The notes beneath the pieces are model-generated. The model worked only from the letters and a program-made list of their open reading frames with translations. It was not told the DNA's origin and searched no databases. A stretch of 32,556 nucleotides of DNA from Rhizobium sp. Q54 (lineage in GTDB: Bacteria; Pseudomonadota; Alphaproteobacteria; Rhizobiales; Aestuariivirgaceae): NCBI GenBank assembly GCA_945889445.1, contig CAMDBX010000046.1:1-32556 (forward strand), given 5' to 3'. Shown piece after piece: positions 528 through 25,552 of the stretch. The position numbers and the translations under genes were made by a program. Within the stretch, counting starts at the first letter, position 1; the number at the start of each line of letters is the position of its first letter.

Positions 528-1808
528 TCAATCCAGCTTGATCGTTTCCGCGATCTCGATGCCGAAACCCGATAGGCCGACGTAGTGGCGGTTGGAGGAG
601 GACACGAGTCGGATCGAGCTGACGTTGAGATCGCGCAGTATCTGCGCACCCAGCCCCACATCGCGCCAGGACTTCTGGCGCTGGGCGGCGCTGCCGGTCT
701 TCTCGGCACCCGATAGCTGGCCTGCCGGAACGCCGGCGGCCCCTTCCTGCAGGTAGACGAGGATGCCGCAGCCCTCGCGCTTGAACACCTCGAACACCTT
801 GTTGAGCGTGGTGCGCTTGCCGAACACGTCCTCGATCACGTTCTCGCGGTGCAGACGCACGGGTACGGCCTTGGCCGTGGAGACATCACCGAAGACGAGC
901 GCCAGCTGCTCCACCTGGTCGAAGGGGGTAACGAAGGAATAACCCTTGGCCTTGCCGATCACCGTCTCGACGTCGAACTGCGCCGTCTGCTCGACGAGGC
1001 GCTCGCGGCGCTGGCGATAGGCGATGAGGTCAGCCACCGAGATGATCTTGAAGCCATGCTCACGCGCGAAGGCGAAATTCTGGGGCCCGCGCTTCACCGA
1101 GCCATCGTCATTGACGAGTTCGCAGATGACGCCTGCGGGGTGGAGGCCCGCCAGCTTCACGAGGTCGACCGCGGCTTCCGTGTGGCCCGAACGCATGAGA
1201 ACCCCGCCGGACTTGGCGACCAGAGGGAAGATGTGGCCGGGGCGCACGAAGTCATCGGCCACCACGTTGCGGTTGGCGAGCGCGTGGCAGGTGGCGGCGC
1301 GTTCCTTGGCGGAAATACCGGTGGTGAGGCCTTCCTTGTAGTCGATCGTCACGGTGAAGGCGGTGCCCATCGGCGCGTCGTTCAGGGCCACCATCGGGTC
1401 GAGCTTCAGGCGCTTGGCGTCCTCCGCGGTGATCGGGGTGCAGACGATGCCGGAGGTGTGCCGCACCATGAAGGCCATCTGCTCCGGCGTGATCTTGGCG
1501 GCCGCACCGATCAGGTCGCCCTCGTTCTCGCGGTCGTCGTCGTCAACCACCACCACCATTTCGCCAGCGGCAACCGCCTTGATTGCATCCTCGACGGTAT
1601 CGAGCTTCTGTTCATTCGCCATGGTCTGATCTCCAAAATCGGCGGGGCGCACCTTGTTGCCCGTGGCGGCGGCAATCTTGTTGGCCAGGTCGAGGGAGGG
1701 CAGCGCCCCCGCCACGAGCTGCGAAACGCGGCCCTGGGTAACCCCCAGCCGGCGTGCCAGTTCGGATTGCGATGTGCCGCTATTAGCGAGCCACTCGGAA
1801 AGCTTCAT
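528..1808 (-). CDS. ribB: HTH-RibB fusion: DHBP synthase with N-terminal DNA-binding domain and degenerate GTP cyclohydrolase II domain
   Basis: 426 residues in three parts. Residues 1-60 form a Cro/YdaS-like helix-turn-helix (SQSELARRLGVTQGRVSQLV). Residues 66 to about 270 are 3,4-dihydroxy-2-butanone-4-phosphate synthase, which makes the four-carbon riboflavin precursor from ribulose 5-phosphate; metal and substrate motifs are present (DDDDRENEGDL at 89-99, HTSGIVC, TGISAKERAAT, RPGHIFPL, GHTEAAVDL). The rest resembles GTP cyclohydrolase II, but the zinc Cys cluster (C-x-GD-x-FGS-x-RCDC type) is replaced by ENVIEDVFGKRTTLNKV, so GTP cyclohydrolase activity is not expected. An internal ATG at 1622-1620 (Met63) has a good GGAG site eight bases upstream and would give ordinary RibB without the HTH. 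The long start at 1808 has no Shine-Dalgarno but sits where a leaderless transcript would begin. RibB identity is sure; use of the long start is inference. Confidence 0.9.
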   Translation of the reverse strand: MKLSEWLANSGTSQSELARRLGVTQGRVSQLVAGALPSLDLANKIAAATGNKVRPADFGDQTMANEQKLDTVEDAIKAVAAGEMVVVVDDDDRENEGDLIGAAAKITPEQMAFMVRHTSGIVCTPITAEDAKRLKLDPMVALNDAPMGTAFTVTIDYKEGLTTGISAKERAATCHALANRNVVADDFVRPGHIFPLVAKSGGVLMRSGHTEAAVDLVKLAGLHPAGVICELVNDDGSVKRGPQNFAFAREHGFKIISVADLIAYRQRRERLVEQTAQFDVETVIGKAKGYSFVTPFDQVEQLALVFGDVSTAKAVPVRLHRENVIEDVFGKRTTLNKVFEVFKREGCGILVYLQEGAAGVPAGQLSGAEKTGSAAQRQKSWRDVGLGAQILRDLNVSSIRLVSSSNRHYVGLSGFGIEIAETIKLD

Positions 1809-1813
1809 GAGAA

Positions 1814-1834
1814 ATTATTAGCACTGCTAATAAT
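1814..1834. promoter_or_regulatory. Perfect 21-bp palindrome, probable operator of HTH-RibB
   Basis: Arms ATTATTAGCA (1814-1823) and TGCTAATAAT (1825-1834) are exact reverse complements around a single C. The site ends six bases upstream of the ATG of a gene whose first 60 residues are a helix-turn-helix. It covers the -10 element and most of the spacer of the promoter proposed here, the classic position for a repressor site. AT-richness contrasts with the GC-rich surroundings. The palindrome is seen directly; binding by the fused HTH is inference. Confidence 0.7.
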
Positions 1835-1843
1835 CGCCTGCAA
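1815..1843 (-). promoter_or_regulatory. Predicted sigma-70-type promoter of HTH-RibB (leaderless)
   Basis: On the minus strand TTGCAG (1843-1838) is separated by 17 bases from TAATAA (1820-1815). Counting about seven bases downstream of the -10 puts the transcription start on or next to the A of the ATG at 1808, so the long form would be translated from a leaderless mRNA. This fits the absence of a Shine-Dalgarno there. The element is predicted by eye only. Confidence 0.5.
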
Positions 1844-1859
1844 ACCCCTTCGCGGGGTT
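1843..1859 (-). terminator. Hairpin at the end of the dipeptidase gene
   Basis: AACCCC (1843-1848) and GGGGTT (1854-1859) pair around a five-base loop and overlap the stop codon of the upstream dipeptidase gene. There is no real T run, so termination may be weak. It could separate the dipeptidase transcript from the HTH-RibB promoter immediately downstream. Confidence 0.4.
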
Positions 1860-16421: not shown

Positions 16422-18791
16422 TCAGAAGATACTGTCGAACAGAGTCTTTTTCTTCTTCTTCTTTTTCTTCTTCTTGGGCTGGTCGGACTGGGTCGGGTCC
16501 TCGTCGCCCCCGAAGATCTGCTCGACGAAGTTGCGCTTGCGCTTCTTCGAGGTCGGATCGTCGACATTGGCCTTGGGCAGCACCAGCGCGTCGCCCTTCG
16601 GTGCGGCGGGCTTGGCGGCGGCGGCGGCGGCAGCGGCGGCGGCAGCCGCGGCGGCGGCAGGCGGTGTCGTCTCGAACAGGTCGAACATGCCGTTCAGCAC
16701 GCCGTTCACGTCGCCCGTTCCGGCATCGGCCTGCTGGATGTCGGTGCCGGCGCCCTGGGCCTGGTCGGTTTCATCGCTCACCGTCTCGGGTGCCATGGGC
16801 GGCAGTGCCTGGGCGGCGGCAACCGCATAAGATTCGTCATAGGGCACGCCCGCAAAGCCCACCGGCTGCAGGCCGCGCTCCGCCTCCATCATGACGCGCT
16901 TCCAGATCGGCGCGGGGATCAGGCCGCCGGTCACGTCCTTCATCGGCGTGAAGTCGTCGTTGCCCACCCAGACACCCGCCACGTTGTTGCCGGTGAAGCC
17001 GATGTACCAGGCATCGCGATAGCCCTGGTTGGTGCCGGTCTTGCCGGCCACCGGTTCGAAAGCGAGGTCGGCGCGCCGGCCGGTGCCCTGGCGGACCACG
17101 GCGTTGAGCATGGTGTTGAGCTCCGCCACCGTCTCCTCCGGGAACACGCGCTTGGGAAGGTCCGTTGCATCCCGCGTGCGCTCATAGAGCACGTCGCCGT
17201 TGGAGCGGCGGATTTCGAGCACGGTGTAGGGCTTGGCGGCAAGCCCGCCCGAGGCGAAACTGATGTAACCCGTGGTGAGGTCCATCAGTGACAGGGCGCT
17301 GGTGCCCAGCACCATGGGCGCCCAGGTTTCGAGCTGGCCCTTGATGCCGGCGAGGTGGGCCGTGTCGATGATGGCGGTGCGGCCGATGTCGATCATCAGC
17401 TTCACCGGAATCGAATTGTAGGAATGCGCCAGCGCGTTGAGGAGCGTGGTGCGGCCGGCATATTTGCCCGTGTAGTTGCGCGGCGCCCAGTTGCCCACCG
17501 CCACCGGACCGTCGACTACCGTGTCGCTCGGCTTATAGCCCTTGAGAAGCGCCGCCATGTAGACGAAGGGTTTGAACGACGAACCGGACTGGCGCATCGC
17601 GTCGGTTGCGCGGTTGAACTGGCTGATCTCGTAATCAGTACCGCCGACAATGGCCCTCACCGCACCATCTGTGGCCATGACCACGACGGCGCCCTGAGTG
17701 AGGTGGTAGGGCTCGCGGGCGGCGGCCACCTCCTCGTTGACGATGGCCTGCGCGGCTGTTTGCAGCGGCAGGTTTATCGTGGTCTTCACCTCGAGCACAT
17801 AGTCGCCGGTGATGCCCTTCTGGTCGACCAGCGCCATGGTGTCGCGATAGGCGAAGTCGAGGAACCAGTTGGGGCTGTCGGAAATCCGCTGCTGGATGGA
17901 ACTGGCGGGTTCGCGCCGTGCCTGCAGCAGCTCGCCCTGGGTGATGAAGCCCGCGTCCAGCATGCGATAGAGCACGGTGTTGGCGCGCGCCCGCGCGAGA
18001 TCGAGGTTCTGGTGCGGGGCGTATTTGGTGGGCGCCTTGAACAGGCCCGCCAGCATGGCGGACTCCGGCAGGGTGATGTCACGCACCGACTTGCCGAAAT
18101 AGAACTGCGAGGCTGCCTCGATGCCATAGGCACCGCCGCCGAGGTAGGAACGGTCGAGATAGAGCTTGAGGATCTCCTGCTTGGAGAGGCGGGCCTCGAT
18201 CCAGATCGACAGGAAGGCCTCGTGCACCTTGCGGCGGATGGTGCGCTCGGGGCTGAGGAACAGGTTCTTCGCCACCTGCTGGGTGAGCGAGGAGCCGCCC
18301 TGCACCACGTCATTGGCGCGCGCGTTCTGGATGATGGCGCGGAAGGTGCCGATCACGTCGACGCCGAAATGGTCGAAGAAGCGCGCATCCTCGGTGGCCA
18401 GCACCGCCTTGATCATGTGCGGTGGAATGTCGGCCAGGGGAATGGCGTCGTCCTGGCGGATGCCGCGGCGGCCGATGATTTCGCCATCGGCCGTGGTGAA
18501 GGTCACGGCATATTCGCGGCCGCGGTTCCACACGTCGCCGGTACCGGAGAAGGGCGGCAGGGCATAGGCGAGCAGCAGGAAGCAGAAGATCACCCCGAAA
18601 GTCAGGCCGTCGTCGAGGAGGTCGATGAAGACGCGCTTCACGCCCCTGAGGCGGAAACGCTCCAGGAAGCTGCGGTAGGCCGAATGCGTCCGCTTGAGGA
18701 AGTCCCACGTCTCGAACACGGCGGTGCTGACGACACCGTCAGCCCGCCAGAGTCGGCCGGACAGGGATTCATGCGATGGGATTTTCGACAC
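16422..18791 (-). CDS. mrcA: Penicillin-binding protein 1A, bifunctional peptidoglycan synthase
   Basis: 789 residues. A cytoplasmic N-terminus of about 60 residues, one transmembrane helix near 62-80, then a GT51 glycosyltransferase domain (catalytic Glu134 in ATEDARFFDHFGVD; GGSSLTQQVAKNLFL) that polymerises lipid II. The transpeptidase domain has Ser404 in SGSSFKP, SYN at 457-459 and KTG at 584-586. The C-terminus is odd: about 15 consecutive alanines, then a basic stretch (SKKRKRNF) and ten lysines in a row just before TLFDSIF. These codons vary (GCC, GCG, GCT; AAG, AAA), so the tail is not simple slippage of one triplet. DUF1214 and DUF1254 genes follow directly. Confidence 0.94.
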   Translation of the reverse strand: MSKIPSHESLSGRLWRADGVVSTAVFETWDFLKRTHSAYRSFLERFRLRGVKRVFIDLLDDGLTFGVIFCFLLLAYALPPFSGTGDVWNRGREYAVTFTTADGEIIGRRGIRQDDAIPLADIPPHMIKAVLATEDARFFDHFGVDVIGTFRAIIQNARANDVVQGGSSLTQQVAKNLFLSPERTIRRKVHEAFLSIWIEARLSKQEILKLYLDRSYLGGGAYGIEAASQFYFGKSVRDITLPESAMLAGLFKAPTKYAPHQNLDLARARANTVLYRMLDAGFITQGELLQARREPASSIQQRISDSPNWFLDFAYRDTMALVDQKGITGDYVLEVKTTINLPLQTAAQAIVNEEVAAAREPYHLTQGAVVVMATDGAVRAIVGGTDYEISQFNRATDAMRQSGSSFKPFVYMAALLKGYKPSDTVVDGPVAVGNWAPRNYTGKYAGRTTLLNALAHSYNSIPVKLMIDIGRTAIIDTAHLAGIKGQLETWAPMVLGTSALSLMDLTTGYISFASGGLAAKPYTVLEIRRSNGDVLYERTRDATDLPKRVFPEETVAELNTMLNAVVRQGTGRRADLAFEPVAGKTGTNQGYRDAWYIGFTGNNVAGVWVGNDDFTPMKDVTGGLIPAPIWKRVMMEAERGLQPVGFAGVPYDESYAVAAAQALPPMAPETVSDETDQAQGAGTDIQQADAGTGDVNGVLNGMFDLFETTPPAAAAAAAAAAAAAAAKPAAPKGDALVLPKANVDDPTSKKRKRNFVEQIFGGDEDPTQSDQPKKKKKKKKKKTLFDSIF

Positions 18792-19811: not shown

Positions 19812-20651
19812 CTAGTCCCTGTCGAAAAGCATGACGCCACGGCTTGCGAGCGCGGCCAGTTTAAGGCGCGCCTGCCGCGCGAGCGACAGGGCGAGTGCGG
19901 TGGGCGCGGAAACGGTGGCCAGCGCGCCGATGCCGGCGATGGCGCACTTCTGCACCAGCTCGAAGCTGCAACGGCTGGACATCAGCACGAAGCCCTGGGT
20001 GAGGTCATGGCCATCACGCGCCAGCGCGCCGATCAGCTTGTCCAGCGCGTTGTGGCGGCCTACGTCCTCGCGGCTCAGGAGAATTTCTCCGTCCACGGAG
20101 CACCAGGCGGCGGCGTGCACCGTGCGGTTCACGCGGCTCATCGGCTGGTGGGCGGGCAGTTGCTCATAGGCCCGCGCCACGGCCTGCTGGCGAAGCTCCA
20201 CCGCGGGAAGCACGGATGAAGGCATGCGGATTGCGTCCTTCATGTCCTCGATGCCGCAAAGACCGCATCCGGTGCGGCCTTCGAGGCTGCGCTTTGCCAT
20301 GCGGTCGCGGTTGATCCTGTCTTCCGGCACGGAGAGGTCGATCGCGTAGCCCTGCTCGGTGGGCAGAACCAGCACGGCCGTAACGTCCGAGGCCTTGGCG
20401 ATGAGGCCCTCGGCAATGGCGAAGCCAATGGCGAAGTCCTCGAAGTCGGCGGGCGTGCCCATCATCACGGCGTAGTTCTGCGAATTGAACTGCACGGCGA
20501 GCGGAACTTCCTCCGGCACCTGCCAGACCGTTTCCTCGTCACCCGCCAGCGTGTGCAGGACGCCGTGGGCGGCAATCGACGTGCGCAAAGCTTCCACGTC
20601 CCCCGGATGAACCGGGGGGCGCTGATGCTTCATGGCACGGCGGTCGCTCAT
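19812..20651 (-). CDS. fdhD: Formate dehydrogenase accessory sulfurtransferase FdhD (FdsC)
   Basis: 279 residues from the ATG at 20651, which overlaps the fdsA stop as ATGA. FdhD proteins carry sulfur from a cysteine desulfurase to the molybdenum cofactor, making the active sulfurated form of formate dehydrogenase. The essential CxxC is Cys129/Cys132 in GRTGCGLCGIEDM. Other family motifs are VPLAVQFNSQNYAVMMGTP, LSREDVGRHNALDKLIGAL and SSRCSFELVQKCAIAGIGAL. In Rhodobacter-type operons this gene is called fdsC. The frame is open upstream but those codons lie within fdsA. Confidence 0.93.
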   Translation of the reverse strand: MSDRRAMKHQRPPVHPGDVEALRTSIAAHGVLHTLAGDEETVWQVPEEVPLAVQFNSQNYAVMMGTPADFEDFAIGFAIAEGLIAKASDVTAVLVLPTEQGYAIDLSVPEDRINRDRMAKRSLEGRTGCGLCGIEDMKDAIRMPSSVLPAVELRQQAVARAYEQLPAHQPMSRVNRTVHAAAWCSVDGEILLSREDVGRHNALDKLIGALARDGHDLTQGFVLMSSRCSFELVQKCAIAGIGALATVSAPTALALSLARQARLKLAALASRGVMLFDRD

Positions 20652-23527
20652 TCGGCGGCAACCATCGGGGCAACGCGCTTGTTCTCTTCCTCGCGCTCCT
20701 CCCACTCCTTCTGCCACTCGGAGGGCTGGTTGGAGAGGTTCACCTGAACGGCCGTCACCTTGTATTCGGGGCAGTTGGTGGCCCAGTCCGAATTCTCGGT
20801 GGTGATCACGTTGGCGCCCGACACCGGGTGGTGGAAGGTGGTGTAGACCACGCCCTGCGGCATGCGCTCGGAAATCCGGGCGCGCAGCGTGGTGGCGCCG
20901 ATGCGGCTCGAGATCGACACCATGGTGCCGTCCTTGATGCCGCGCACTTCGGCGTCATGCGGGTGGATGTCGAGCACGTCCTCCTTGTGCCACGTCACGT
21001 TATCGGTGCGCCGCGTCTGGGCGCCGACATTGTACTGCGACAGGATGCGGCCCGTGGTGAGGATCAAGGGGAAGGAGCGGTTGGTGCGCTCGGTCGTCGG
21101 CACGAACTCGGTGACCACGAAGCGGCCCTTGCCGCGCACGAAGCCGCCCACATGCATGAGGGGTGTGCCCTCCGGCGCCTTGTCGTTGCACGGCCACTGG
21201 ACGGAGCCCAGCGTGTCGAGCTTGGCGAAGGAGACACCGGCGAAGGTGGGGGTGAGGCGGGCGATCTCGTCCATGATCTCCGAGGCATTGTTGTACTGCA
21301 TCGGATAGCCCATGGCGGTGGCAAGCTCGCAAACGACCTGCCACTCGTCCTTGCCCTGCAGCGGTGCCTTGACCATGCGCACGCGGTTGATGCGGCGCTC
21401 GGCGTTGGTGAAGGTGCCGTCCTTCTCGAGGAAGGAGGTGCCGGGCAGGAAGACATGGGCGAAGGCGGCAGTCTCGTTCAGGAACAGGTCCTGCACCACG
21501 ACGCACTCCATCGACTCCAGCGCGTGGTTCACGTGCTTGGTGTTAGGGTCCGACTGGGCAATGTCCTCGCCCTGAACGAAGATGCCCTTGTAGGTGCCTT
21601 CGACGGCGGCATCGAACATGTTGGGAATGCGCAGGCCCGGCTCGTTGTCGAGGTGGGTCTGCCAAACGCTTTCGAACATCTGGCGCACCGTGTCGTCACC
21701 GACGTGGCGGTAGCCCGGGAATTCGTGCGGGAAGGAGCCCATGTCGCAGGAGCCCTGCACATTGTTCTGTCCACGGAGCGGGTTCACGCCCACGCCGTTG
21801 CGGCCCACGTTGCCCGTGAGCATGGCGAGGTTCGCCATGCCCATGACCATGGTGGAACCCTGGCTGTGTTCGGTGACGCCGAGGCCGTAGTAGATGGCGC
21901 CATTGCCACCGGTGGCGAAGAGGCGGGCCGCAGCGCGGACTTCCACCGCGGGAACGCCGGTGATCGGCTCCAGCGCCTCAGGCGAGTTGCGCTCTTCACG
22001 AATGAAGGCCTCCCAGCGGGCAAACTCCACCGGGTCGCAGCGCTCGGTGATGTAGTCGCGCTTCTCGAGACCCTCGGTGAGGATGACGTGGGCCAGTGCG
22101 TTGATTACCGCCACGTTGGTGCCGGGGCGGAGTTGCAGGTGGTGCGAGGCCTTGACGTGGGCGGAATCGACGAGGTCAATCCGGCGCGGGTCGGCGACGA
22201 TGAGCTTGGCGCCCTCGCGGATACGCCGCTTCATGCGCGAGCCGAACACCGGGTGGGCGTCGGTCGGGTTGGCGCCGATCAGCAGCAGCACGTCCGACTC
22301 ATCGACCGACTTGAAGTCCTGCGTGCCGGCAGAGGTGCCAAAGGTGCGCGACAGGCCGTAACCGGTGGGCGAGTGGCAAACACGGGCACAGGTATCGACG
22401 TTGTTGTTCTTGAAGGCGGCGCGGATCATCTTCTGCACCACGAAGACTTCTTCATTGGTGCAGCGCGAGGAGGTGATGCCGCCAATCGAGGTGCGGCCGT
22501 ACTTCTCCTGGATCGCCTTGAAGCGCGAGGCGGTGTAGCCGATGGCCTCGTCCCACGACACGGCGCGCCACGGGTCGGTGATCTTGTCGCGGATCATCGG
22601 GGTGGTGATGCGATCCTTGTGAGTGGTGTAGCCCCAGGCGAAACGGCCCTTCACGCAGGAGTGGCCCTCGTTGGCGCCACCATCCTTGTAAGGCACCATG
22701 CGGACGACTTCGTCGCCCTTCATCTCGGCCTTGAAGGAACAGCCCACGCCGCAATAGGCGCAGGTGGTGACGACGGAATGTTCGGGCTGGCCCATTTCGA
22801 TCACCGACTTCTCGGAGAGCGTGGCGGTGGGGCAGGCCTGCACGCAGGCGCCGCAGGAAACGCATTCGGAGTCGAAGAAGGCCTCGTCCATGCCGGCCGA
22901 CACGTGGCTGTCGAAGCCGCGGCCGTCAATCGTCAGCGCAAAGGTGCCCTGCACCTCTTCGCAGGCGCGCACGCAGCGCGAGCAGACGATGCACTTGGCC
23001 GGGTCGAAGGTGAAATAGGGGTTCGAGTCGTCCTTGGGCTGGTAGCGGATGTTCTGCGTGCCATCGGCGCGCTTCTTCGAGACGTGGTTGTCGCCATCAT
23101 ACCCATAGCGCACGTCGCGCAGGCCCACGGCACCGGCCATGTCCTGCAATTCGCAGTCGCCGTTCGCGGCACAGGTCAAACAGTCCAGCGGATGGTCGGA
23201 GATGTAGAGCTCCATCACGCCCTTGCGCAGCTGGGCCAGGCGCTGGGTCTGGGTCTTGACCTTGATGCCGGGGGCGACGGGCGTGGTGCAGGAGGCGGGC
23301 GTGCCCTTGCGGCCCTCGATCTCGACGAGGCAGAGGCGGCAGGAGCCGAAGGCATCCAGCATGTCGGTGGCGCAGAGCTTGGGGATCTTGGTGCCAAGCT
23401 CCATGGCGGCGCGCATGATCGAGGTGCCCTCGGGCACGGTGATCTGCTGGCCGTCAATCTCGAGGGTCACCATCTTGGTGGAGGTGACCTCGGGTGTGCC
23501 GTAGTCGGTTTCTTTAATGAGAGTCAT
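20648..23527 (-). CDS. fdsA: NAD-dependent formate dehydrogenase, catalytic alpha subunit
   Basis: 959 residues. It oxidises formate to CO2 at a bis-MGD molybdenum (or tungsten) centre and feeds electrons through iron-sulfur clusters to FdsB. Order of domains: a [2Fe-2S] ferredoxin domain (Cys52, 63, 66, 80); a NuoG-like His-Cys [4Fe-4S] site (His112, Cys116, 119, 125); two ferredoxin-type clusters (Cys179/182/185/189 and Cys222/225/228/232); a [4Fe-4S] next to the cofactor (Cys256, 259, 263, 291); then the molybdopterin domain. The metal ligand is Cys384 followed by catalytic His385 (CARVCHSPTGYG); it is Cys, not selenocysteine. The start at 23527 is chosen for AAGGAG upstream. All cofactor residues look intact. 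Confidence 0.96.
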   Translation of the reverse strand: MTLIKETDYGTPEVTSTKMVTLEIDGQQITVPEGTSIMRAAMELGTKIPKLCATDMLDAFGSCRLCLVEIEGRKGTPASCTTPVAPGIKVKTQTQRLAQLRKGVMELYISDHPLDCLTCAANGDCELQDMAGAVGLRDVRYGYDGDNHVSKKRADGTQNIRYQPKDDSNPYFTFDPAKCIVCSRCVRACEEVQGTFALTIDGRGFDSHVSAGMDEAFFDSECVSCGACVQACPTATLSEKSVIEMGQPEHSVVTTCAYCGVGCSFKAEMKGDEVVRMVPYKDGGANEGHSCVKGRFAWGYTTHKDRITTPMIRDKITDPWRAVSWDEAIGYTASRFKAIQEKYGRTSIGGITSSRCTNEEVFVVQKMIRAAFKNNNVDTCARVCHSPTGYGLSRTFGTSAGTQDFKSVDESDVLLLIGANPTDAHPVFGSRMKRRIREGAKLIVADPRRIDLVDSAHVKASHHLQLRPGTNVAVINALAHVILTEGLEKRDYITERCDPVEFARWEAFIREERNSPEALEPITGVPAVEVRAAARLFATGGNGAIYYGLGVTEHSQGSTMVMGMANLAMLTGNVGRNGVGVNPLRGQNNVQGSCDMGSFPHEFPGYRHVGDDTVRQMFESVWQTHLDNEPGLRIPNMFDAAVEGTYKGIFVQGEDIAQSDPNTKHVNHALESMECVVVQDLFLNETAAFAHVFLPGTSFLEKDGTFTNAERRINRVRMVKAPLQGKDEWQVVCELATAMGYPMQYNNASEIMDEIARLTPTFAGVSFAKLDTLGSVQWPCNDKAPEGTPLMHVGGFVRGKGRFVVTEFVPTTERTNRSFPLILTTGRILSQYNVGAQTRRTDNVTWHKEDVLDIHPHDAEVRGIKDGTMVSISSRIGATTLRARISERMPQGVVYTTFHHPVSGANVITTENSDWATNCPEYKVTAVQVNLSNQPSEWQKEWEEREEENKRVAPMVAAE

Positions 23528-23540
23528 CTGTCGTGGCTCC

Positions 23541-25064
23541 TTATTCGGCGGCAAGCGCTGCGGGCTTGTCGAAATCTTCGGGGAAATGCTTGATGGCGCT
23601 CATGACCGGCATGGGGGTGAGGCCGCCCATGGCGCAGAGCGAACCGTCGGTCATGGTCTGGCAGAGGTCGGAGAGCAGTTCGAGGTTGGCGTCACGGTCC
23701 TCGCCGGCGACGATCTTGTCGATCACCTCGACGCCGCGCGTCGAGCCGATGCGGCAGGGCGTGCACTTGCCGCAGGATTCAATCGCGCAGAACTCCATGG
23801 CGAAGCGCGCCTGGGCGGCCATGTCGACCGTCTCGTCGAACACCACGATGCCGCCGTGACCGACCATGGCCTGGGCGGCGGCGAAGGTTTCATAGTCCAT
23901 CGGCATGTCCATCTGGGAGGCCGGGACATAGGCGCCGAGCGGACCGCCGACCTGGATGGCGCGGATGGGCTTGCCCGTGAATGTGCCGCCGCCGAAGGTT
24001 TCGACCAGTTCACGCAGGGTGACGCCGAAGGCCTTCTCGACCAGCCCGCCCTGCCTGATGTTGCCGGCGAGCTGGAACGGCAGCGTGCCGCGCGAGCGGC
24101 CCATGCCGTAATTCTTGTAGGCCGTGCCGCCCTCGGCGAGGATGAAGGGGACGGCGGCGAAGCTCAGCACGTTGTTGATGACGGTGGGCTTGCCGAACAG
24201 GCCTTCGAGTGCGGGGATCGGCGGTTTGGGGCGCACCGTGCCACGCTTGCCCTCGAGAGACTCGAGCATGGCGGTCTCTTCACCGCAGATATAGGCGCCC
24301 GCACCGCGGCGCACCTCGAGGTGGAAGGTTTTGTCCGTACCCTGAATATTCGCACCCAGCCACTTGGCGGCGACCGCATTGGCGATCGCCTCCTTCATGG
24401 TGGCGATGGCATCTGGGTATTCCGAGCGGATATAGACGTAGCCCTTGGTGGCGCCCACGGCGATGGCGGCAATCGTCATGCCCTCGATGAGCATGAGGGG
24501 GTCGCCCTCCATGACCATGCGGTCGGCGAAGGTGCCTGAGTCGCCTTCATCCGCGTTGCAGCAGATATATTTCTGGTCGGCCCTGGCATCGAGCACGGTC
24601 TTCCACTTGATGCCGGTGGGGAAGCCCGCACCGCCGCGGCCACGAAGGCCCGACTCGGTGACTTCAGCCACGATGGCCGCGCCTGCAAGGCCCAGCGCCT
24701 TCTTGAGGCCGTCGAAGCCGCCGAGCTTCACATAGTCCGAAACCGAAACGGGATCAGTGATGCCGCAGCGCGCGAAGGTGAGGCGCTCCTGATTCTTGAG
24801 ATAGGGGTGATCCTCGATGTTGCCGAGGCGCAGCGTGTGGGCGCCAGCCGTGGCAATGGGCAGCGAGGCGACGTCATCGATGGTGACCGGGCCATAGGCG
24901 ATGCGGCCATCCTTGGTCTCGACCTCGACGAGGGGCTCGAGGAAGAGGAGGCCGCGCGAGCCGTTGCGGACGACTTCATGGCCGAGCTTCGCAAGCGCTG
25001 CGGCCACTTCATCGGCACCGACCGAGCGGGCGGCGGAATCACGGGGAACGAAGACCTTGCTCAT
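23541..25064 (-). CDS. fdsB: NAD-dependent formate dehydrogenase, beta (diaphorase) subunit
   Basis: 507 residues. This NuoF-like subunit takes electrons from FdsA and reduces NAD+ with FMN. An N-terminal region of about 110 residues, related to a thioredoxin-like fold, precedes the NuoF core. FMN and NAD motifs are GLRGRGGAGFPTGIKW (139-154) and GAYICGEETAMLESLEGKRG (256-275). The [4Fe-4S] ligands are Cys431, Cys434, Cys437 (ESCGKCTPCRIGS) and Cys477. The start at 25064 overlaps the fdsG stop as ATGA; the frame continues open upstream only within fdsG. Gap to fdsA is 13 bases. Confidence 0.95.
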   Translation of the reverse strand: MSKVFVPRDSAARSVGADEVAAALAKLGHEVVRNGSRGLLFLEPLVEVETKDGRIAYGPVTIDDVASLPIATAGAHTLRLGNIEDHPYLKNQERLTFARCGITDPVSVSDYVKLGGFDGLKKALGLAGAAIVAEVTESGLRGRGGAGFPTGIKWKTVLDARADQKYICCNADEGDSGTFADRMVMEGDPLMLIEGMTIAAIAVGATKGYVYIRSEYPDAIATMKEAIANAVAAKWLGANIQGTDKTFHLEVRRGAGAYICGEETAMLESLEGKRGTVRPKPPIPALEGLFGKPTVINNVLSFAAVPFILAEGGTAYKNYGMGRSRGTLPFQLAGNIRQGGLVEKAFGVTLRELVETFGGGTFTGKPIRAIQVGGPLGAYVPASQMDMPMDYETFAAAQAMVGHGGIVVFDETVDMAAQARFAMEFCAIESCGKCTPCRIGSTRGVEVIDKIVAGEDRDANLELLSDLCQTMTDGSLCAMGGLTPMPVMSAIKHFPEDFDKPAALAAE

Positions 25065-25552
25065 GAGCGGCACTCCGCGACGATCGTCTCGAACTTCTTG
25101 GCATCCACCCGGCCGACCAGCTTGTCGTCCACCATCACGGCAGGCGAGAGCGCGCAATTGCCGAGGCAGTAGGCGGCCTCGAGCGTGATTGCGCCATCGG
25201 CGGTGGTCTGGCCCAGCTTCACCTTGAGGAAACGCTCGATCATGGAGACGAGCTCATTGGCACCCATCGACTGGCAGGCTTCCGCCCGGCAGACCTTGAT
25301 GACGTGGCGGCCAGCGGGCTCGCGGCGATAGTCATGATAGAAGGTGACAACGCCGTGAACCTCGGCGCGCGACAGGTTCAGCGCCTTGGCCAGCGCGGGG
25401 AGCGCGGCCTCGGGGATGAAGCCCAGATGCTCCTGCAGGTCATGGAGGATTTCCAGCAGCGCATCGGGGCGGTTGCCGTAGCGGAGGGCGATCTCCCGGG
25501 CGGCCGTCGCCTCACGCGGGGAAAGATCGAGAAGGGTGGTTTTCTGAGACAT
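25061..25552 (-). CDS. fdsG: NAD-dependent formate dehydrogenase, gamma subunit
   Basis: 163 residues. NuoE-like [2Fe-2S] protein that partners FdsB in the diaphorase half of the complex. The four ligands are Cys88 and Cys93 (KVCRAEACQSMGA) and Cys129 and Cys133 (AYCLGNCALSPAVMV). The N-terminal helical region contains GNRPDALLEILHDLQEHLGF. First structural gene of the fds operon; the 188 bases upstream hold a family 3 repeat and a short dyad. Confidence 0.95.
   Translation of the reverse strand: MSQKTTLLDLSPREATAAREIALRYGNRPDALLEILHDLQEHLGFIPEAALPALAKALNLSRAEVHGVVTFYHDYRREPAGRHVIKVCRAEACQSMGANELVSMIERFLKVKLGQTTADGAITLEAAYCLGNCALSPAVMVDDKLVGRVDAKKFETIVAECRS

Follow-up and report, generated by a model that had tools for sequence, protein, structure and literature searches.

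An operator-like palindrome and a proposed autoregulatory role for a helix-turn-helix-bearing RibBX in the Rhizobiales

In bacteria, riboflavin genes are best known for being controlled by flavin mononucleotide (FMN) riboswitches. A 32,556-nt stretch from Rhizobium sp. Q54 (family Aestuariivirgaceae; assembly GCA_945889445.1, contig CAMDBX010000046.1, positions 1 to 32,556; hereafter the window) raises the question of why an enzyme of this pathway should carry a DNA-binding domain, and what role a perfect palindrome next to its start codon might play. The gene, here called hth-ribBX (528–1808, minus strand), is an open reading frame for a 426-residue protein in which a helix-turn-helix (HTH) precedes RibBX. 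Comparison with relatives suggests that it quite probably encodes an autoregulated trigger enzyme with a conserved operator, made in a leaderless long form and as RibBX from an internal start, and controlling a riboflavin importer as well in one family (f41, probably Stappiaceae). If so, a large alphaproteobacterial group would have a biosynthetic enzyme that doubles as the transcription factor of its own gene.

Architecture of the fusion and its upstream palindrome

The initial annotation described an HTH fused in frame to RibB, and Pfam bears out the fusion: on one reading frame, HTH_3 (PF01381) covers residues 6–50 (E = 2.4e-8; 34.3 bits, cut-off 23) and DHBP_synthase residues 73–264 (E = 1.7e-83). 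Scanned alone, the N-terminal piece (residues 1–68, HTH and linker; 1605–1808, minus strand) gives E = 1.3e-9 for HTH_3, and the DHBP synthase piece (catalytic domain at 1017–1592, minus strand) E = 5.6e-84 for PF00926. The description "Cro/YdaS-like" was half right: YdaS_toxin (PF15943) reaches 18.8 bits, under its cut-off of 30, while HTH_3 exceeds its own, so that the domain is Cro/CI-like and not YdaS. The predicted structure (mean predicted local distance difference test score, pLDDT, 79) has helices at residues 3–10, 14–21, 25–32, 39–48, and 55–58, a five-helix HTH in which helix 25–32, with Q30, sits at the recognition position; the linker at residues 60–66 falls below pLDDT 50.

The DHBP synthase domain is intact, its DDDDRENEGD and RSGHTEAA motifs being invariant in 37 of 37 aligned rows. 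The name RibB was incomplete, however, as a further domain had been overlooked: GTP_cyclohydro2 (PF00925, E = 4.3e-29) occupies residues 274–423 (540–989, minus strand). In alignments to 4i14, 6mnz, and 2bz0, the window protein lacks cysteine in the stretch where 4i14 and 2bz0 show C...RCDC; among the 37 homologue rows, three have a single cysteine there and none has three. A C-terminal domain resembling GTP cyclohydrolase II without its zinc cysteines is therefore RibX, and the enzyme RibBX, which has reportedly been treated by Brutinel in 2013 (Shewanella) and Nouwen in 2021 (Bradyrhizobium). The combination of DHBP synthase with a GTP cyclohydrolase II-like domain lacking catalytic residues is the same, and 6mnz, the Acinetobacter baumannii RibBX, aligns to the window's RibX; it is the third-ranked Protein Data Bank chain for the predicted model, which also resembles Mycobacterium tuberculosis RibA2. 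The Pfam result for the window protein holds the HTH, DHBP synthase, and GTP cyclohydrolase II-like domains only, with no riboflavin kinase domain. By sequence and predicted fold, enzyme and DNA-binding domain thus share one polypeptide, as in a trigger enzyme.

The putative operator is the palindrome ATTATTAGCACTGCTAATAAT (1814–1834; core TTAGC-N3-GCTAA, centre at -16 relative to the start codon). It is exact over its 21 bp, as first described, with 10-base arms around a central C, but lies five bases from the ATG, not six. The 13-bp core TTAGCANTGCTAA has a single mismatch-free occurrence in the 4.94-Mb assembly. An HTH_3 domain above cut-off together with a palindrome upstream of its own gene is the arrangement of XRE (Cro/CI) autoregulators. 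A putative -10 (TAATAA, 1815–1820, minus strand) lies inside the operator and would start transcription at or near the ATG; the candidate -35 (TTTGCA, 1839–1844, minus strand) is weak. A strict consensus promoter scan reported neither of these minus-strand elements, giving only a plus-strand match there, so that the -10 proposed in the initial annotation finds indirect support among relatives (below) rather than in the window. Directly after the stop codon of the upstream gene is a GC-rich hairpin (1841–1857; AACCCC-GCGAA-GGGGTT on the minus strand), which may end that gene's transcript; it is absent from the terminator scan's list.

The operator among relatives and across genomes

The window's site generalises to TNAGY-N3-RCTNA upstream of ribBX genes with the HTH (HTH+). 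This motif was derived from 81 loci, the window and 80 named loci (the best 80 of 461 stretches encoding a relative), and is scored out of 12. Of the defining loci, 78 of 81 score at least 10, compared with 2.5% of 8100 dinucleotide shuffles of their upstreams. In held-out genes the threshold is reached by 53 of 55 HTH+ genes vs. none of 47 HTH-less ribBX genes (p = 4e-27, relatedness ignored), the upstream stretch searched being longer for the latter; four loci in which the catalytic motif was not found (L259, L264, L269, L280) were dropped from the HTH-less count. Five more HTH+ genes (L017, L148, L224, L239, L233) stand outside both these 55 and the 135 distinct genes considered below; four of them score 11. 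Palindrome length, a measure that takes no account of the motif, distinguishes the two groups weakly. The expectation that the palindrome would be conserved only where the HTH is present is thus borne out, and no HTH homologue lacking any palindrome was found among the 74 HTH+ genomes of the order (Rhizobiales): 71 score at least 10, at two the score is 9 although the same site is visible, and one (L017) has only a variant palindrome. A conserved site at the gene presumably controlled is a second property expected of a trigger enzyme.

The variable base of the half-site changes with the amino acid at position 30, in the predicted recognition helix; the corresponding residue of the phage 434 repressor, Q33, touches bases. 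Among 118 HTH+ genes, 64 of the 65 with alanine at this position have C/C half-sites and one has T/C; among the 52 with glutamine, 38 have T/T and two A/A; and the single serine gene has C/C. The number of independent switches is small (below), so this match should be read as agreement between base and residue and not as statistical proof of co-evolution.

The 74 genomes are, among the matches listed, those joining this HTH to RibBX in a sample of 397 from the order, the count taking from a sorted list every row whose E does not exceed 3.8e-37 and whose match opens at profile position 1 or 2. Among 385 genomes sampled from the class, the whole-profile matches listed from outside the order come from just two genomes of family f94; the N-terminus of one f94 locus (L146) is identical to that of Zavarzinia marina (L063). 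The best 80 of the 461 stretches include loci from Microvirga, Roseibium, Xanthobacter, Ancylobacter, Rhodoblastus, Phreatobacter, and Methylocella, and the nearest named relatives among them are an Aestuariivirga litoralis locus and a metagenome-assembled genome, each at 94% over the first 103 residues. Two further genomes of the order (L240, L241) carry a different HTH on RibBX, the two domains seemingly unrelated to the main one; these genomes were left out of both the HTH+ and HTH-less groups. Fusion of an HTH to RibBX may therefore have arisen more than once. The two do not serve as proof of convergence: both are without the operator site, and one has an arm-7 palindrome (reached by 73 of 1000 shuffles) and the other none with an arm of at least 6.

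Searches of whole genomes give a similar picture. In the window's family (13 HTH+ genomes, 11 of them searched), 10 have a single match to the pattern ATTAGYNNNRCTAAT, located at ribBX; in G247, which has no match, the site is one base off the pattern. Each of the 43 genomes with the TTCAG-type site has at least one match, and the total of 76 divides into 44 at ribBX, 7 at ribN, and 25 elsewhere, compared with 18 for a reversed control pattern; two places in this tally are unlisted, one being the single match of G077, known from its ribBX upstream region. Ten of the 25 matches elsewhere were inspected, and most look like chance. Two settings are shared by related genomes: G132 and G160 both have a match next to a LysR-type gene, and G328 and G353 one that lies 39 bases ahead of the gene for a membrane transporter. 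These operator-like matches (L351/L352 and L356/L357) might represent chance, shared descent, or further targets.

The seven ribN matches are all in family f41 (G116, G300, G328, G353, G271, G286, G341). Each has its centre 6–64 bp ahead of an FMN riboswitch, which is followed by the gene for an EamA-type permease of RibN size, identified by Pfam in five of the seven and by translation in G300 and G353 (which resemble G116 and G328). Alphaproteobacterial ribN is described as carrying an FMN riboswitch (in the relevant part of PMC4418817). Overall, FMN riboswitches are present in 13 of the 43 TTCAG-type genomes; ten of these 13 (all but G365, G366, and G388) were examined. In G041, G198, and G294 the riboswitch lies before ribH (recognised from its translation in G294), with no operator match there. 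In f41, HTH-RibBX would thus probably also control the RibN-like riboflavin importer, from a site shortly before the importer's own riboswitch. This second target and the predicted operator make the proposal directly testable.

Translation starts and the direction of control

Among the 135 distinct HTH+ genes, the centre of the main site is near -16 in 21, near -34 in 47, and near -61 in 65 (elsewhere in 2). In 111 of the 135, the best consensus -10 has its end 5–9 nt ahead of the ATG (20/21, 30/47, and 61/65 in the three groups, respectively; no shuffled control accompanies these counts). A -10 this close to the ATG, if real, would place the start of the transcript at about the ATG itself. 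The HTH start is preceded by a Shine-Dalgarno (SD) match of at least 4 nt in just 6 of 135 genes, and it looks leaderless by these sequence features.

A second start is apparent inside the gene. In the window it would be the in-frame ATG of Met63 (1620–1622, minus strand), preceded by the SD sequence GGAG (1631–1634, minus strand). An in-frame ATG, GTG, or TTG is found in all 135 genes, 18–34 codons ahead of the DHBP synthase DD..RENE motif, and at the best of these the SD match is at least 4 nt in 130 and at least 5 nt in 97, compared with 292 and 95, respectively, of 2719 other in-frame starts in the same genes; choosing the best candidate in each zone somewhat favours the observed count. 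A second, HTH-less product is likely on this comparison.

Taken together, these observations suggest the following scheme. Full-length HTH-RibBX, presumably a dimer since the site is a two-fold palindrome, would bind TNAGY-N3-RCTNA at its own promoter and repress it. The mRNA would probably begin at or near the HTH start codon, giving leaderless translation of the long form, while the SD-led internal start before RibB would yield plain RibBX enzyme. RibX, lacking catalytic residues, might sense flavin or a pathway intermediate; the initial annotation's suggestion that the enzyme responds to its substrate (ribulose 5-phosphate) or to flavin is a candidate mechanism of this kind. A fuller version, in which a two-product vitamin gene supplies a leaderless repressor-enzyme and a short enzyme, RibX is the sensor of the regulon, and operator and FMN riboswitch act in series at ribN, is offered tentatively. 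It would be a compact route to repressor and enzyme from one gene by way of two kinds of translation start, and would offer a candidate function, sensing, for the otherwise puzzling RibX domain.

Self-regulation through the palindrome, as first suggested for this locus, is strongly supported by the comparison: the site accompanies the HTH across families, base and residue agree, and the site is single-copy in 10 of 11 family genomes. Several points weigh on the other side. The counts are uncorrected for relatedness. L017 has only a variant palindrome, with an arm length reached by 97 of 1000 shuffles. The remaining glutamine genes comprise 4 with C/C, 1 with G/G, and 7 with asymmetric half-sites (of 52), and a tree gives three supported independent switches or pairs, two of three concordant (sign test, median p = 0.5). 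Pairs of related genomes share some of the extra matches at places other than riboflavin genes. An amino-acid-preserving null, in which the codons preceding the internal start were silently recoded in 200 trials, shrinks the SD excess, with a mean of 76.4 of 135 genes (maximum 92) at 4 nt or more and 52.0 (maximum 65) at 5 nt or more. Finally, a main site near -61 makes an activator conceivable.

The null bears most directly on a first alternative, that the internal start and its SD sequence are an unused relic of the start of an unfused ribBX gene. HTH-less ribBX proteins do start at about the same place, and the null is already at 76 of 135 because the Glu-rich linkers favour GAG codons. However, the 130 observed exceed the maximum of 92 in 200 recodings, and a start with a suitably spaced SD sequence persists across families in which linker length and sequence vary; the relic explanation seems rather unlikely.

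As a second possibility, the HTH-operator pair might be real but the protein an activator, at any rate in genes with a main site near -61. This is a classic position for an activator, and 65 of the 135 genes have it. The XRE-type proteins wBmxR1 and wBmxR2 of Wolbachia moreover raise expression of a ribA reporter, according to the portion of PMC3518464 concerned. Against this, 48 of 58 scored genes in the -61 group have a weaker second site centred between -35 and -30, over the -35 element (vs. 15 of 116 control windows), which favours occlusion of polymerase, and the sites near -16 and -34 in the other 21 and 47 genes fit occlusion as well. Activation is accordingly judged improbable, and autorepression the better account.

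As a third possibility, the palindrome might be bound by a different regulator, with the HTH of RibBX serving another role such as oligomerisation. XRE proteins are plentiful in bacterial genomes, and binding by HTH-RibBX itself is proposed from sequence comparison. Such a regulator would have to explain why site and HTH co-occur (53/55 vs. 0/47), why the half-site base follows the helix residue of RibBX, and why the match is unique to ribBX in 10 of 11 family genomes, making this very unlikely. That the inverted repeat is instead an RNA hairpin at the ribosome-binding site, as its position adjoining the ATG in the window might suggest, is hardly credible: in 112 of 135 genes the repeat is near -34 or -61, upstream of the putative transcript start, and seven genomes have it again ahead of the ribN riboswitch.

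Riboswitches, pathway context, and related systems

The initial annotation also argued that the gene leaves no room for an FMN riboswitch. The gap to the upstream gene's stop is indeed 49 bases, and FMN riboswitch searches (RF00050) give no match anywhere in the window's assembly, nor near any of 20 HTH+ loci scanned (of more than 135). As a sign of special control the argument is weak: HTH-less ribBX genes also show none (0 of 40, in 1.1-kb stretches; one farther upstream of the operon would escape), and an FMN riboswitch is present elsewhere in 15 of the 74 HTH+ genomes. Replacement of a riboswitch by the HTH at ribBX itself is rejected for the same reason, that the HTH-less genes show none in these stretches either. 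At the level of genomes there is a difference, with an FMN riboswitch in those 15 of 74 HTH+ vs. 134 of 323 other genomes (Fisher p = 0.0005, relatedness ignored), and in 0 of 8 HTH+ vs. 5 of 5 other genomes of the window's genus. Three of these five (G104, G264, G280) have no ribB match at all; the riboswitch precedes an EamA permease gene in G264 and G280, ribD-ribE-ribBA in G322 (by Pfam), and the same order of reading frames in G186.

The HTH+ genomes raise a question of supply as well. Among 40 of the 74 that were searched (G000 and 39 others), 27 have no PF00925 domain beyond the zinc-less RibX, and all 40 have RibD_C. RibX is thought unlikely to be the missing GTP cyclohydrolase, because it has lost both the zinc ligands and the GRGIGL stretch. 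A route with the formamidase BrbF and an undiscovered GTP cyclohydrolase, "BrbG," is outlined in the corresponding part of PMC9478397, and the 27 genomes would be good places to seek the latter.

Several known systems share parts of the proposed arrangement. In RibBX, the X domain modulates RibB activity by a mechanism called unknown in the part of PMC10012899 that treats it; the paper mentions no HTH, whereas the window protein has one. The archaeal riboflavin kinase/regulator RbkR likewise joins a riboflavin enzyme to gene regulation, and a relative without the N-terminal HTH is described as enzyme only (PMC8305020, in part). RbkR differs in its enzyme and in domain of life, and the likeness drawn here is one of architecture. 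The Wolbachia proteins wBmxR1 and wBmxR2 are XRE-type, alphaproteobacterial, and bind a riboflavin gene promoter, but in the same portion of PMC3518464 they are stand-alone activators, neither binding its own promoter. PutA, BirA, and NadR also combine enzymatic activity with a DNA-binding domain and serve as transcription factors, although none of the trigger enzymes named in the relevant passages of PMC8249747 and PMC6978683 makes riboflavin. XRE-family autoregulators have a Cro/CI-type HTH and a palindrome upstream of their own gene (PMC12565409, in part); in HTH-RibBX, by contrast, the HTH is attached to a complete biosynthetic enzyme. FMN riboswitches act in the same pathway, with none at the HTH+ ribBX loci scanned and both signals together at ribN in the seven f41 genomes. 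No account of an HTH-RibBX fusion was found in the titles and abstract openings of the literature searched, which took in few subscription journals and not the primary RibBX papers, so that an earlier mention is possible.

Elsewhere in the window, a gene cluster at 19812–25552 (minus strand) is presumably an NAD-dependent formate dehydrogenase operon. The protein encoded at 16422–18791 (minus strand), which we take to be a class A penicillin-binding protein, contains 15 consecutive alanines and, C-terminally, 10 consecutive lysines.
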